DNA from: Actinomycetota bacterium
GTDB taxonomy: Bacteria; Actinomycetota; Acidimicrobiia; Spongiisociales; UBA11373
Assembly: GCA_020444505.1 (NCBI GenBank)
Contig: JAHLKU010000016.1
Location: forward strand, 1-48,489
Length of the DNA: 48,489 bases
Direction of reading: 5' to 3'
How positions within the stretch are numbered: the stretch's first letter is position 1; every line of letters begins with the position of its first letter. The position numbers and the translations under genes are program-made. Shown here piece after piece: positions 15,146 to 20,375 of this stretch. The notes beneath the pieces were generated by a model. It saw nothing but the letters and a program-made list of their open reading frames with translations, was not told where the DNA came from and did not search any database.

Positions 15146-16548
15146 AGGAGTGGCTCCGCCGCGTGCTGCCCGACCCGGTCATCCGGGTGCTGAAGCCGGT
15201 CTACCGCTGGTTCATCTCCGTCGGCAGATGGGCCCGGCGCATCGGGAGGCGGTTCCGCAGGGCGGGGCGCATCCTCGTGGGCCGCGACGACACGGCGGTG
15301 CAGGCGCTCGCCGACCGGGTGGACGCGGTGCGCGACGACCGGGACGCAGTGAAGGCCGAGTTGCGGCGGGTGCGCGGCGAGTTGAGAAAGGCGCGCGAAC
15401 GGTGGGCGGCGACGGAGCGCACCAGGGAGCCCTCCCCCGACGAGGTGTGGGAGGGGCAGCGGGCCCAGCTCGCCGGACGGCCCCCACTGGCCGACCTCGC
15501 CTACTTCCCGGGCGGCTCGCAGAACCCGTATCTGCGGTTGTTGTATGCCGGCCTCCCCGAGGTGGGCTACGACCCGCGGCCGCTGGGGTCCTACGAGCTG
15601 CTGGACAGGGCGCCGGGCGACGGGGTGTTCCACCTGCACTGGACCCGGGTGTTCCAGGCGGGGGCGCCCGACGAGGCTGCCGCGCGGGAGCAGACCGAAC
15701 GGGGCCTCGCCCGGCTGGAGGACTACCTGGGGCGTGGTGGGCGGTTGGTGTGGAGTGTGCATGAGTGGTTGCCGCATGATTGTGAGTTCCCTGAGGTGGA
15801 GGTGGGGTTGCGGCGTCGGTTGGTGGAGTTGGCGTCGGGGGTGCATGTGTTGCATGCCTCGACGTTGGGTGAGGTGGAGGGGTTGTATCCGTTGGATCCG
15901 GAGCGGACGTTCACGGTGGAGCATCCGTTGTATCGGGGGGTGTATCCGGAGTATGTGACGCGGGGGGCGGCGCGCCGGTTGTTGGGGGTGGATCCGGATG
16001 AGGTGGTGTTGTTGGCGTTCGGGGCGATCCGGCCGTACAAGGGGTTCGATCGTCTGGTGGGGTTGGTGCCGCGGTTGCGGGAGGTGTCGGGGGAGCGGGT
16101 GCGGGTGATGGTGGCGGGGCCGGTGTTCAAGTCGGTGGATGTGGGGCCGTTGGTGGAGTTGGCGGGGTCGGTGGATGGGGTGTCGATGACGGATCGGGCG
16201 GTGCCGGATGAGTACGTGCAGGTGTTGTTCCGGGCGGCGGATGTGGTGGTGTTGCCGTATCGGCAGGTGATGAACTCCGGGGTGTTGATGTTGGCGTTGT
16301 CGTTTGGGTGTCCTTCGGTGGCGCCTGAGAATCCGGTGACGCGGGATGCGGTGGGGTCGGGGTTGGTGCATGTGTTCGATCGGGAGTCGGATGAGTCGTT
16401 GTTGGGTGCGGTGGTGGAGGCGATGGGGCGTCGGGGGGATCGGGGGATCGCTTCGGATGCGTTCGTGGCCCGGTACGATCCCGTGACGATCGCCACCCAG
16501 TTCGCCCACGAAGTCGCCGCCCGGCTCGGGCAGCCCGATGCGCCGTAG
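15142..16548 (+). CDS. Glycosyltransferase 1 (GT4/GT1-type), mosaic gene
   Basis: A 468-residue protein. The first about 50 residues are strongly basic, then a charged coiled coil (about 55-100, with AVRDDRDAVKAELRRVRGEL), then a glycosyltransferase domain. In that domain WSVHEWLPHDCEFPEVE and FGAIRPYKGFDRLVGLVPRL resemble GT4/GumK-type enzymes, with a terminal donor-site helix around NSGVLMLALSFGCPSVAPENP. Residues about 127-460 are identical to the next gene's enzyme because 1005 bp are duplicated. Codon use changes abruptly inside the gene near 15730 and back near 16468. GTG start overlaps the sulfotransferase stop (GTGA). Donor and acceptor are unknown. Confidence 0.82.
   Translation: MKEWLRRVLPDPVIRVLKPVYRWFISVGRWARRIGRRFRRAGRILVGRDDTAVQALADRVDAVRDDRDAVKAELRRVRGELRKARERWAATERTREPSPDEVWEGQRAQLAGRPPLADLAYFPGGSQNPYLRLLYAGLPEVGYDPRPLGSYELLDRAPGDGVFHLHWTRVFQAGAPDEAAAREQTERGLARLEDYLGRGGRLVWSVHEWLPHDCEFPEVEVGLRRRLVELASGVHVLHASTLGEVEGLYPLDPERTFTVEHPLYRGVYPEYVTRGAARRLLGVDPDEVVLLAFGAIRPYKGFDRLVGLVPRLREVSGERVRVMVAGPVFKSVDVGPLVELAGSVDGVSMTDRAVPDEYVQVLFRAADVVVLPYRQVMNSGVLMLALSFGCPSVAPENPVTRDAVGSGLVHVFDRESDESLLGAVVEAMGRRGDRGIASDAFVARYDPVTIATQFAHEVAARLGQPDAP
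15519..16523 (+). repeat. 1005-bp direct repeat, copy 1 (in glycosyltransferase 1)
   Basis: Matches 16747-17751 base for base with a constant offset of 1228 bp; I found no mismatch on line-by-line comparison. The boundaries fall inside both glycosyltransferase genes, starting at the codons for QNPYLRLLYAG and ending after HEVAAR. Flanking sequence differs, apart from a short near-match upstream around ACTTCCC. Confidence 0.97.
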
Positions 16549-17794
16549 CCTCGCCTCCCGCCTCTACCGGCGCCTCGTCCCCGGCCGGGTCAAGGTGTGG
16601 CTGACGCCGCTGGTGCTGCGCCGCCGCCGTCGCCGCGACGCCGCCCGTGCCGCAGCGACCGCCCCCGACGAGGCATGGCGAGTGCAGCGGGCCGCACTCG
16701 GCGGGGGCGCGGGCCTCCGCCCGTACGCCTACTTCCCCGGCGGGCTGCAGAACCCGTATCTGCGGTTGTTGTATGCCGGCCTCCCCGAGGTGGGCTACGA
16801 CCCGCGGCCGCTGGGGTCCTACGAGCTGCTGGACAGGGCGCCGGGCGACGGGGTGTTCCACCTGCACTGGACCCGGGTGTTCCAGGCGGGGGCGCCCGAC
16901 GAGGCTGCCGCGCGGGAGCAGACCGAACGGGGCCTCGCCCGGCTGGAGGACTACCTGGGGCGTGGTGGGCGGTTGGTGTGGAGTGTGCATGAGTGGTTGC
17001 CGCATGATTGTGAGTTCCCTGAGGTGGAGGTGGGGTTGCGGCGTCGGTTGGTGGAGTTGGCGTCGGGGGTGCATGTGTTGCATGCCTCGACGTTGGGTGA
17101 GGTGGAGGGGTTGTATCCGTTGGATCCGGAGCGGACGTTCACGGTGGAGCATCCGTTGTATCGGGGGGTGTATCCGGAGTATGTGACGCGGGGGGCGGCG
17201 CGCCGGTTGTTGGGGGTGGATCCGGATGAGGTGGTGTTGTTGGCGTTCGGGGCGATCCGGCCGTACAAGGGGTTCGATCGTCTGGTGGGGTTGGTGCCGC
17301 GGTTGCGGGAGGTGTCGGGGGAGCGGGTGCGGGTGATGGTGGCGGGGCCGGTGTTCAAGTCGGTGGATGTGGGGCCGTTGGTGGAGTTGGCGGGGTCGGT
17401 GGATGGGGTGTCGATGACGGATCGGGCGGTGCCGGATGAGTACGTGCAGGTGTTGTTCCGGGCGGCGGATGTGGTGGTGTTGCCGTATCGGCAGGTGATG
17501 AACTCCGGGGTGTTGATGTTGGCGTTGTCGTTTGGGTGTCCTTCGGTGGCGCCTGAGAATCCGGTGACGCGGGATGCGGTGGGGTCGGGGTTGGTGCATG
17601 TGTTCGATCGGGAGTCGGATGAGTCGTTGTTGGGTGCGGTGGTGGAGGCGATGGGGCGTCGGGGGGATCGGGGGATCGCTTCGGATGCGTTCGTGGCCCG
17701 GTACGATCCCGTGACGATCGCCACCCAGTTCGCCCACGAAGTCGCCGCCCGCATCACCGGCGACGACGAGAGCCACCTCACGGAGGACGCATGA
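16538..17794 (+). CDS. Glycosyltransferase 2 (GT4/GT1-type), mosaic gene
   Basis: A 418-residue paralogue of the preceding enzyme. Its N-terminus is different: a short Arg-rich region (LVLRRRRRRDAARAA, about 26-40) and no coiled coil. From residue about 71 to 404 it is identical to glycosyltransferase 1. Its C-terminus ITGDDESHLTEDA is unique. Since the catalytic core is the same, the two proteins may make the same linkage with different partners or locations, or one copy may have recently overwritten the other. It overlaps the previous gene by 11 nt and the Stf0-like gene by 4 nt. Confidence 0.82.
   Translation: MRRSLASRLYRRLVPGRVKVWLTPLVLRRRRRRDAARAAATAPDEAWRVQRAALGGGAGLRPYAYFPGGLQNPYLRLLYAGLPEVGYDPRPLGSYELLDRAPGDGVFHLHWTRVFQAGAPDEAAAREQTERGLARLEDYLGRGGRLVWSVHEWLPHDCEFPEVEVGLRRRLVELASGVHVLHASTLGEVEGLYPLDPERTFTVEHPLYRGVYPEYVTRGAARRLLGVDPDEVVLLAFGAIRPYKGFDRLVGLVPRLREVSGERVRVMVAGPVFKSVDVGPLVELAGSVDGVSMTDRAVPDEYVQVLFRAADVVVLPYRQVMNSGVLMLALSFGCPSVAPENPVTRDAVGSGLVHVFDRESDESLLGAVVEAMGRRGDRGIASDAFVARYDPVTIATQFAHEVAARITGDDESHLTEDA
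16747..17751 (+). repeat. 1005-bp direct repeat, copy 2 (in glycosyltransferase 2)
   Basis: Second copy of the segment at 15519-16523, same orientation, apparently 100 percent identical. Such identity, including silent positions, means a very recent duplication or ongoing gene conversion. The copies are separated by 223 bp that hold the distinct ends of the two genes. Confidence 0.97.
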
Positions 17795-18549: not shown

Positions 18550-18555
18550 TACGGT
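18550..18555 (+). promoter_or_regulatory. Leaderless-type -10 element (TACGGT) for the candidate selenoprotein gene
   Basis: TACGGT fits TANNNT and lies 7 nt before the ATG at 18563. It overlaps an in-frame GTG at 18554, which argues that the ATG is the true start and that the gene has its own promoter apart from the glycan operon. Confidence 0.45.
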
Positions 18556-18562
18556 GCCGCCC

Positions 18563-19210
18563 ATGCGCCGCGCCGCCATCGCCATCGCCGTCCTCGCCCT
18601 GACCGCCGCGGCCTGCGGCGGTACCGCCGCCCCGTCGTCGACCGCACCGCCCTCCTCGACGACCACGACCTCCACCACCATCGCCGCTCCGCCGGAGCCG
18701 CCGTCCTCCACCACCTCCGCCCCGGGCCCGGGGTCGACGGCGCCTCCGTCGTCCACCACCTCCACCACCGAAGCGGCCCGGCCGCCGCTCCCCGACGATG
18801 CCGTCGCTGCGCCCCCCTTCGAACTGGCGCTCGGTGAGGGCGGCACCTTCGTGCTGGCCGACGCCCAGAAGCCCGTGTACATGGTGTTCTGGGCCGAGTG
18901 GTGAGGCGTCTGCAGACGGGAGTTGCCCGTCATCGATGCGGTCGCATCGGACTACCAGGACGCCGTCACCTTCCTCGCCGTGGCCGGCCGGTCCACGCCG
19001 GAGGCGTCCGCGGCGCGGGTGGGGGTGTGGTTCTCCCCGGATCGGGTCCTGTGGGGCTACTCGGACGAGATCTGGGACCTCTACGCCGTGCCCTACCAGC
19101 CGGTCAGCGTGCTCATCACCAGCGACGGGTACGAGGTGAACCGGTGGTTCGGCGAGGCGTCTGAGGAGGATCTCAGAGCGGCCCTCGACGAACTGGCCGC
19201 CTACGGCTGA
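18563..19210 (+). CDS. Thioredoxin-like lipoprotein with in-frame UGA at the CxxC motif (candidate selenoprotein)
   Basis: Read through a single in-frame TGA at 18902-18904, this is a 215-residue protein. It has a lipoprotein signal ending ALTAAAC (Cys18), a Ser/Thr/Pro-rich linker (about 21-75) and a thioredoxin-like domain. The UGA is codon 114, in VFWAEW-U-GVCRRELPVI, exactly where thioredoxins have the first Cys of WCxxC; Cys117 is the partner. The frame after UGA completes the fold, with a cis-Pro segment VPYQPVSVLI and the closing GYEVNRWFGEASEEDL, up to a normal TGA stop. Hairpins follow the UGA at once (18905-18949). It is probably an exported thiol/selenol oxidoreductase. Alternatives are a nonsense mutation or a base-call error. 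No sel genes are in the window. Confidence 0.75.
18905..18949 (+). promoter_or_regulatory. Candidate bacterial SECIS hairpins after the in-frame UGA
   Basis: Two alternatives. Hairpin A: GACGGG (18915-18920), loop AGTTG, CCCGTC (18926-18931), extended by a lower stem GCGTC (18906-18910) with GATGC (18935-18939) across a 4/3 internal loop; its loop begins 17 nt after the UGA. Hairpin B: CGATGC (18934-18939), loop GGTC, GCATCG (18944-18949); the GGUC loop equals that of the E. coli fdhF SECIS but starts 36 nt after the UGA. Known bacterial SECIS loops have a G in the first two positions at roughly 16-37 nt, which both satisfy. The lower stem of A and hairpin B exclude each other. Confidence 0.55.
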
Positions 19211-19881
19211 GCCCTGCCCGCCACCATCGACCACACGACGGACGCTGCGCCGGCGGACAGGCCGACCACGTACCACCATTCCGGACCGGCGCCGAGACCC
19301 ACCCGCATCGGCTCCGTGGCCAGCCGGACGGCCGCGGCCCAGGCGAGCGCCGCGCCGGCGGCCGTGCCTGCGGGAGCGCCGCGCCGCCGCCACAGCACCA
19401 GGGCCACCGCCCCGGCGGCCAGCAGCACTGCGGCGTAGGCCTCGACCGGGTGGCGGGCGACCGGACCGCCCTGCTCGGTGATCCCCCACGGGAGCGAGGT
19501 GGGCGTGCCGGCGCAGGCCCCGCGCAGCACGCACCCGCCGTGCCATCCGGCCAGCCCCGCCAGCGCCGCGGCGGCGACGGCGTCCAGGCGGCCCGCCACG
19601 TCGACGCGGGACAGCACGATCGCGGCGGCGAGCGCCCCCGCCGCGGCGAACCCGGTGTCGACGCCGCCCCGCAGGATCAGCAGGTCGCCGGGGTGGGTGA
19701 ACGGGTTGGTGCCGCCGCCGATCATGGCGGCGATCCGGCCGACGGCGAGGCCGGCCACGGCCGAGGACAGCACCAGGTCGAAGCGCTCCCGCACGCCCCC
19801 TTCGGTGCGGCCCTCCCACCACAGCACGACGGCGGCGCACGCCAGGGCGAGGGCGGCGGCTCCGAGCAGCGAGAACTCCAT
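19201..19881 (-). CDS. Lgt-like (prolipoprotein diacylglyceryl transferase family) membrane protein
   Basis: A 226-residue membrane protein with about seven hydrophobic segments and partial Lgt motifs: LLILRGGVDTGFAAAGA in place of the GGLxxHGG region, VARHPVEAYAAVL matching RHPxQLYEA, and AVRLATEPMR near the C-terminal RFxxEFxR region. The HGG His is missing, so it is probably not the housekeeping Lgt; it may be a divergent paralogue. It follows the TlpA-like gene with a one-base overlap, and its 3' end overlaps the candidate selenoprotein gene by 10 bp on the other strand. A role with thioredoxin-like lipoproteins is inferred from this context only. Confidence 0.68.
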   Translation of the reverse strand: MEFSLLGAAALALACAAVVLWWEGRTEGGVRERFDLVLSSAVAGLAVGRIAAMIGGGTNPFTHPGDLLILRGGVDTGFAAAGALAAAIVLSRVDVAGRLDAVAAAALAGLAGWHGGCVLRGACAGTPTSLPWGITEQGGPVARHPVEAYAAVLLAAGAVALVLWRRRGAPAGTAAGAALAWAAAVRLATEPMRVGLGAGPEWWYVVGLSAGAASVVWSMVAGRAQP

Positions 19882-20375
19882 CAGCCGGTCCCTGCGAGGA
19901 GGTCGTCGATGCGCAGGGCCAGCGTGCGTTCGTCGATCACGCCGATGTGGGTGGACGCCAGGCCGCCGCCGGGGGAGAAGAAGAACGTCAGCGGGACCCC
20001 GGTGGCGCCCAGCGATGCGGGGACGGCGCCGGTCCGATCGAAGTAGTGCTCGAACGAGGTCAGGCCGAACTCGGCGATGAACGCCCTCGCGCCGTCCTGG
20101 TCGTCGCGGACGTCGATCCCCACGAAGCGGACGTCGCCGCCCGCCTGGGCGGCTGCCTCCCGGAACAGCGGCGCCTCCGACCGGCACGGGCCGCACCACG
20201 AGGCCCACACGTTCACCACCACCGGCACCTCGGATGCGGACACGAGGGCCTCCAGTTCCGCCGGCGTGGTCGGCGGGAGCTCCGGCACGTCGGAGACGTC
20301 CACGTCGGGCCCGCCGCAGGCGGCGAGCACGAGTGCCAGGACGGCGGCGAGCAGCGGCAGGCGTCGGGCGGTCAT
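19881..20375 (-). CDS. TlpA-like thioredoxin-domain lipoprotein
   Basis: A 164-residue protein with a lipoprotein signal (LVLAACGG, Cys about 20) and a TlpA-type thioredoxin fold: VVVNVWASWCGPCRSEAPLF with an intact WCGPC motif, VRFVGIDVRDDQDGARAF, and the cis-Pro segment ATGVPLTFFFSPGG. It should reduce or exchange disulfides outside the membrane, for example in cytochrome c maturation or protein repair. It is the Cys-based counterpart of the candidate selenoprotein gene 700 bp away on the other strand. TAGACT at 20389-20384 lies 8 nt before the ATG. Confidence 0.9.
   Translation of the reverse strand: MTARRLPLLAAVLALVLAACGGPDVDVSDVPELPPTTPAELEALVSASEVPVVVNVWASWCGPCRSEAPLFREAAAQAGGDVRFVGIDVRDDQDGARAFIAEFGLTSFEHYFDRTGAVPASLGATGVPLTFFFSPGGGLASTHIGVIDERTLALRIDDLLAGTG

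Follow-up and report, generated by a model that had tools for sequence, protein, structure and literature searches.

In a lipoprotein gene that belongs to an uncultured order of Acidimicrobiia, an internal UGA almost certainly encodes selenocysteine (Sec), as judged from four features that can be read in the DNA itself: the correspondence of this codon with UGA or Cys codons in relatives, the Sec machinery of the genome, a SECIS hairpin after the UGA, and the predicted fold. The gene lies in the window, by which we mean the whole 48,489-nucleotide stretch of DNA that was analyzed (Table 1). Its frame contains one internal stop, the TGA at codon 114, and closes with another TGA at 19208–19210; the numbering of Sec114 holds if translation starts at the ATG at 18563, an alternative start being the GTG at 18554. 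The surrounding motif is VFWAEW-U-GVCRRELP, with the UGA where thioredoxins have the first cysteine of CxxC. Read with the standard code, the gene becomes a truncated lipoprotein and an orphan fragment. An initial annotation of the window had joined the two segments into one thioredoxin-like lipoprotein with a single in-frame UGA at the first CxxC position, had noted high GC3 past this codon, and had proposed decoding as Sec. The comparisons described below bear out all of these proposals, and GC3 is indeed 0.92 downstream of the UGA and 0.91 upstream.

Table 1. Features of the Sec lipoprotein gene and its neighbors in the window
Feature	Position	Strand	Detail	Basis
Selenoprotein gene (almost certain)	18563..19210	+	215 residues + stop, Sec at 114	Internal TGA; same codon in 101 homologous loci
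Signal peptide and lipobox (predicted)	18563..18616	+	Lipidation Cys18 at 18614–18616	Pattern match
Ser/Thr/Pro-rich linker	18617..18796	+	Limits approximate	Translation; similar linkers in homologues
Thioredoxin domain (predicted)	18797..19207	+	ResA/TlpA type	Pfam, AlphaFold, Foldseek to ResA
UGA, almost certainly Sec114	18902..18904	+	First residue of UxxC	TGA at 101/110, Cys codon at 9/110 loci
Codon of putative resolving Cys117	18911..18913	+		Cys in 99/99 distinct UGA sequences
Bacterial SECIS hairpin (predicted)	18915..18931	+	Stem GACGGG/CCCGUC, loop AGUUG, 16 nt after UGA	Folding, published model, covariation
Divergent Lgt-like membrane protein	19201..19881	−	Convergent to Sec gene	PF01790, 46.8 bits
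Cys-type TlpA-like lipoprotein	19881..20375	−	WCGPC	PF00085, 48 bits

The Sec protein is predicted to be a bacterial lipoprotein, lipidated at Cys18; a simple pattern finds the signal peptide and lipobox in 99 of 107 homologues, and 6 of the other 8 are truncated where the stretch ends. With Cys placed at the UGA, the Pfam models Thioredoxin (36.4 bits), AhpC-TSA (33.9 bits), and Redoxin (27.5 bits) all match above their gathering cut-offs, and the matches run across the UGA. In the AlphaFold model a single domain is predicted with confidence (pLDDT 95.3, pTM 0.90), and the closest solved structures found for it by Foldseek are ResA-type (TM-score ~0.84). The WAEW-U-xx-C motif does not vary across 32 sequences, nor does a Gln-Pro pair located where the cis-Pro is expected.

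The account that best explains these observations, and in which as a whole we have high confidence, is SECIS-directed insertion of Sec114 into a lipoprotein whose extracytoplasmic ResA/TlpA-type domain would work by Sec114/Cys117 redox chemistry. SelB with Sec-tRNA-Sec would decode the UGA through the hairpin to yield the 215-residue lipoprotein, which would be exported and then lipidated at Cys18, and the Ser/Thr/Pro linker would position the thioredoxin domain outside the membrane. Sec114 would attack an oxidised group of the substrate, such as a disulfide, and the resulting selenenylsulfide would be resolved by Cys117. The Sec lipoprotein is most likely a thiol:disulfide oxidoreductase that is anchored in the membrane, acts outside the cytoplasm, and uses Sec as the attacking residue; Sec insertion, export, and the direction of the redox reaction are what we infer here.

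As to direction, our best guess, made by resemblance, is a reductase to which a CcdA/DsbD-type membrane protein would pass reducing power from the cytoplasm. A selenoprotein that instead serves as an oxidase or isomerase in extracellular disulfide formation, like the mycobacterial Dsb proteins, seems to us a possible but rather unlikely alternative. The best PDB sequence match is Mycobacterium tuberculosis DsbF (3ios, E 2.6e-16), MPT53 (1lu4) is also close, and secreted actinobacterial relatives such as DsbF are Dsb-type; the closest folds, however, are ResA-type, and the source genome encodes one DsbD_TM protein. Sec at the attacking position, moreover, usually suits a reduced enzyme. A reductase role for the Sec lipoprotein is also plausible because the redox partner of the pneumococcal thioredoxin lipoproteins Etrx1 and Etrx2 is a methionine sulfoxide reductase (PMC3914529).

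The reading of the UGA itself draws on an order-level alignment of 110 homologous loci, the window's own included, from 138 genomes, the homologues coming mostly from metagenome assemblies of uncultured Acidimicrobiia or Actinomycetota. The initial annotation had suggested looking for Cys or Sec at residue 114 in homologues, and every locus carries one codon or the other: TGA at 101 and TGC or TGT at nine. The nine comprise three paralogues with WASWC and six direct counterparts with VFWAEWC, the sixth of which is an extra copy in one genome (G052) alongside a UGA copy. Within the family (14 genomes), the UGA form is present in eight genomes and a stop-free form in two (G001 and G012), neither of which has a tRNA-Sec or selA match. 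Across the order, selA was detected in 114 of 138 genomes, and the UGA form goes with it (Fisher p = 0.0009, relatedness not corrected): selA was detected in 84 of the 93 genomes with the UGA form and in one of the five with a Cys counterpart only, none being detected in the other four. Most of the nine UGA-form genomes without detected selA are incomplete assemblies. The single Cys-only genome with selA (G136) keeps it despite the Cys form of its homologue (G136:C64:4204-4605; G136:C9:2075-3223). In four genomes the gene occurs in three neighboring copies, all of them interrupted by an in-frame TGA (G105:C62, G108:C33, G109:C31, and G110:C39). In a class sample of 395 genomes, just two weak matches were found outside the order, both without the stop.

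A tree built on all 110 rows nests Cys forms inside Sec forms at no fewer than three places as read off the drawing, a rough count given midpoint rooting and a bootstrap that had not settled; the program's own group count covers the rows other than the Sec ones. The nested forms include three clustered in family f8, and G001 and G012 in family f1, on supported branches. This arrangement suggests that Sec is the older state in the order and that Cys replaced it later.

The nucleotides downstream of the UGA are constrained as well. The 25-nt stretch that holds the hairpin has a folding energy of −10.7 kcal/mol. The published bacterial SECIS model calls for a loop of 3–9 nt with a G at one of its first two positions, a stem of 4–16 bp, a UGA-to-loop spacing of 16–37 nt, and an energy of at most −7.5 kcal/mol (PMC13188914), and the window's hairpin fits it with 6 bp, AGUUG, 16 nt, and −9.2 kcal/mol. 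The same model is satisfied at 85 of 99 distinct UGA loci, compared with none of the nine Cys loci and ~4% of synonymous-codon-randomised controls; the 14 UGA loci that miss the strict model have weaker stems and mostly lie just above the energy limit. Stems of at least 5 bp are present in 94% of distinct UGA loci versus 9% of the synonymous-codon controls, and in no Cys form, and pairing in the named stem reaches 91.8% versus 61% in the synonymous-codon null. At the second position from the base of the stem, 65 sequences have G-C and 22 have A-U, a two-sided (compensatory) change, and 88% encode the loop Leu with TTG or TTA, codons that account for ~14% of Leu codons elsewhere in the same genes. 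These patterns show constraint at the RNA level beyond that on the protein. RNAalifold gave only a weak consensus over the whole locus set (−0.59 kcal/mol), which a shifted hairpin register in a minority of loci probably explains. The folding energy of the whole 45 nt is not discriminating (mean z −0.9 at UGA loci, with some Cys forms equally low), and an Rfam search returned a single chance match on the opposite strand.

The genome holding the window (2.54 Mb, rated 97.6% complete) encodes the full Sec machinery. The initial annotation had proposed this search and had counted absence of selB, selC, or selD against its own reading; a tRNA-Sec (74.2 bits, above cut-off; anticodon tca by ARAGORN), adjacent selA and selB on contig 53, and selD on contig 9 were all found, the protein matches likewise above their cut-offs. 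An early codon of the selD gene is an in-frame TGA (L017:305-307, G000 contig C9), as in known Sec-containing SelD proteins, and a stable hairpin follows, so SelD of this genome is probably a selenoprotein too. Elsewhere in the order, one genome (G008) has two above-cut-off tRNA-Sec matches (C4:40768-40856 and C2:139699-139786), and another, which has a UGA-form lipoprotein, has a selA match with an internal TGA (G054:C24:10358-11668), a sequencing error or decay.

UGA readthrough happens in bacteria, and the codon could be read as a residue other than Sec (Trp, Gly, or whatever near-cognate suppression would insert). We consider this very unlikely: UGA ends neighboring genes and the Sec gene itself, so the genetic code is unchanged; Cys is the only alternative residue in relatives; and tRNA-Sec, selA, and selB are present together with a hairpin of the SECIS type. 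That the gene is decaying and the TGA a true stop, or that the TGA is a sequencing error, with the downstream frame a remnant, is scarcely credible, for although a 101-codon open run at 73% GC has a ~20% chance in one genome alone, so that openness of the frame is weak proof by itself and the argument must rest on conservation, the same codon is TGA in ~93 genomes, which refutes sequencing error, the half downstream of the UGA is under purifying selection (dN 0.15, well below dS 0.47, for codons beyond the tenth after the UGA, against a same-genus homologue), the predicted fold spans the codon with confidence, and the homologues have no other stops and no decay of the kind that the initial annotation had told readers to look for.

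The Lgt-like gene that faces the Sec gene overlaps its end by 10 bp. This arrangement is seen in 17 genomes (families f1 and f7), with the TlpA-like gene also present in 16 of them; the convergent Lgt-like/TlpA-like pair was also noted at L157, L159-L163, L165, L173, L177, and other loci. A second, canonical Lgt is encoded elsewhere in the source genome (contig 75, 202 bits). Outside families f1 and f7, no Lgt-like gene turned up next to the Sec gene, which is thus not dependent on it. The Cys pair of the Lgt-like neighbor was considered for a redox function, an idea dropped because some homologues lack both cysteines. A broader proposal, in which an undescribed, order-wide, ancestrally Sec-containing selenolipoprotein family would form the outer end of a dedicated membrane redox relay with Lgt-like and TlpA-like partners, strikes us as improbable. 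Separately, positions 15431-16523 and 16659-17751 of the window form a 1.1-kb tandem repeat (97.8% identical) that covers most of two adjacent glycosyltransferase genes and may be a recent duplication, gene conversion, or an assembly artefact.

A secure selenoprotein and its SECIS can now be placed in an uncultured Acidimicrobiia order whose members generally use Sec. Actinobacteria were among the phyla rich in selenoprotein families in a 2006 count (PMC1794560), and a literature search for selenoproteins and Acidimicrobiia together found no paper. The one expectation of the initial annotation that found no support is that such a protein would be out of the ordinary for bacteria of this type: within the order, the Sec-containing form of the lipoprotein is the norm, and UxxC thioredoxin-like selenoproteins, lipoproteins included, are known (PMC13188914). 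The gene is common to most of an uncultured Actinomycetota order, and a stop-to-stop reading splits it in two. The replacement of Sec by Cys in lineages that have apparently lost the Sec machinery offers a natural comparison of the two residues in a single enzyme, and in an extracytoplasmic setting where the main risk is oxidation.

Several known systems lie close to the Sec lipoprotein. ResA of Bacillus and the related TlpA/CcmG-type oxidoreductases are extracytoplasmic and membrane-tethered and share its fold, but they have Cys where it has Sec, are 22–27% identical to it, and differ from the Sec lipoprotein family in the latter's WAEW and Gln-Pro motifs. The structural matches Etrx1 and Etrx2 are surface thioredoxin lipoproteins with a Cys motif (~25–27% identity), and DsbF and MPT53 are actinobacterial extracytoplasmic thioredoxin-fold proteins, again with a Cys motif (~26–28% identity). 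No curated NCBIfam model covers the Sec lipoprotein above its cut-off: it scores 41.3 bits against the curated cut-off of 170 for ResA (NF002854), and although NF041057 (Rcas_1661 family thioredoxin-like (seleno)lipoprotein) likewise describes a thioredoxin-like selenolipoprotein, the score there is 26.5 bits against 190 and the match ends just past the motif, so the protein is not a member. More than 110 prokaryotic selenoprotein families have been listed, many of them UxxC thioredoxin-fold proteins, TlpA-like and redoxin proteins included (PMC13188914; PMC2398784). One table names a "thiol-disulfide isomerase-like protein" (cd02966), a "redoxin family protein" (PF08534), and Sec-thioredoxin (PF00085) (PMC13188914), and "Trx-like 1" and "Prx-like 3" are further UxxC thioredoxin-like selenoproteins (PMC2398784). 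The Sec lipoprotein resembles these UxxC thioredoxin/TlpA-like selenoproteins in its thioredoxin fold, in having Sec first in UxxC, in its Cys counterparts, and in a SECIS directly after the UGA, and, compared with those families by their descriptions, it is probably a new subfamily among them.
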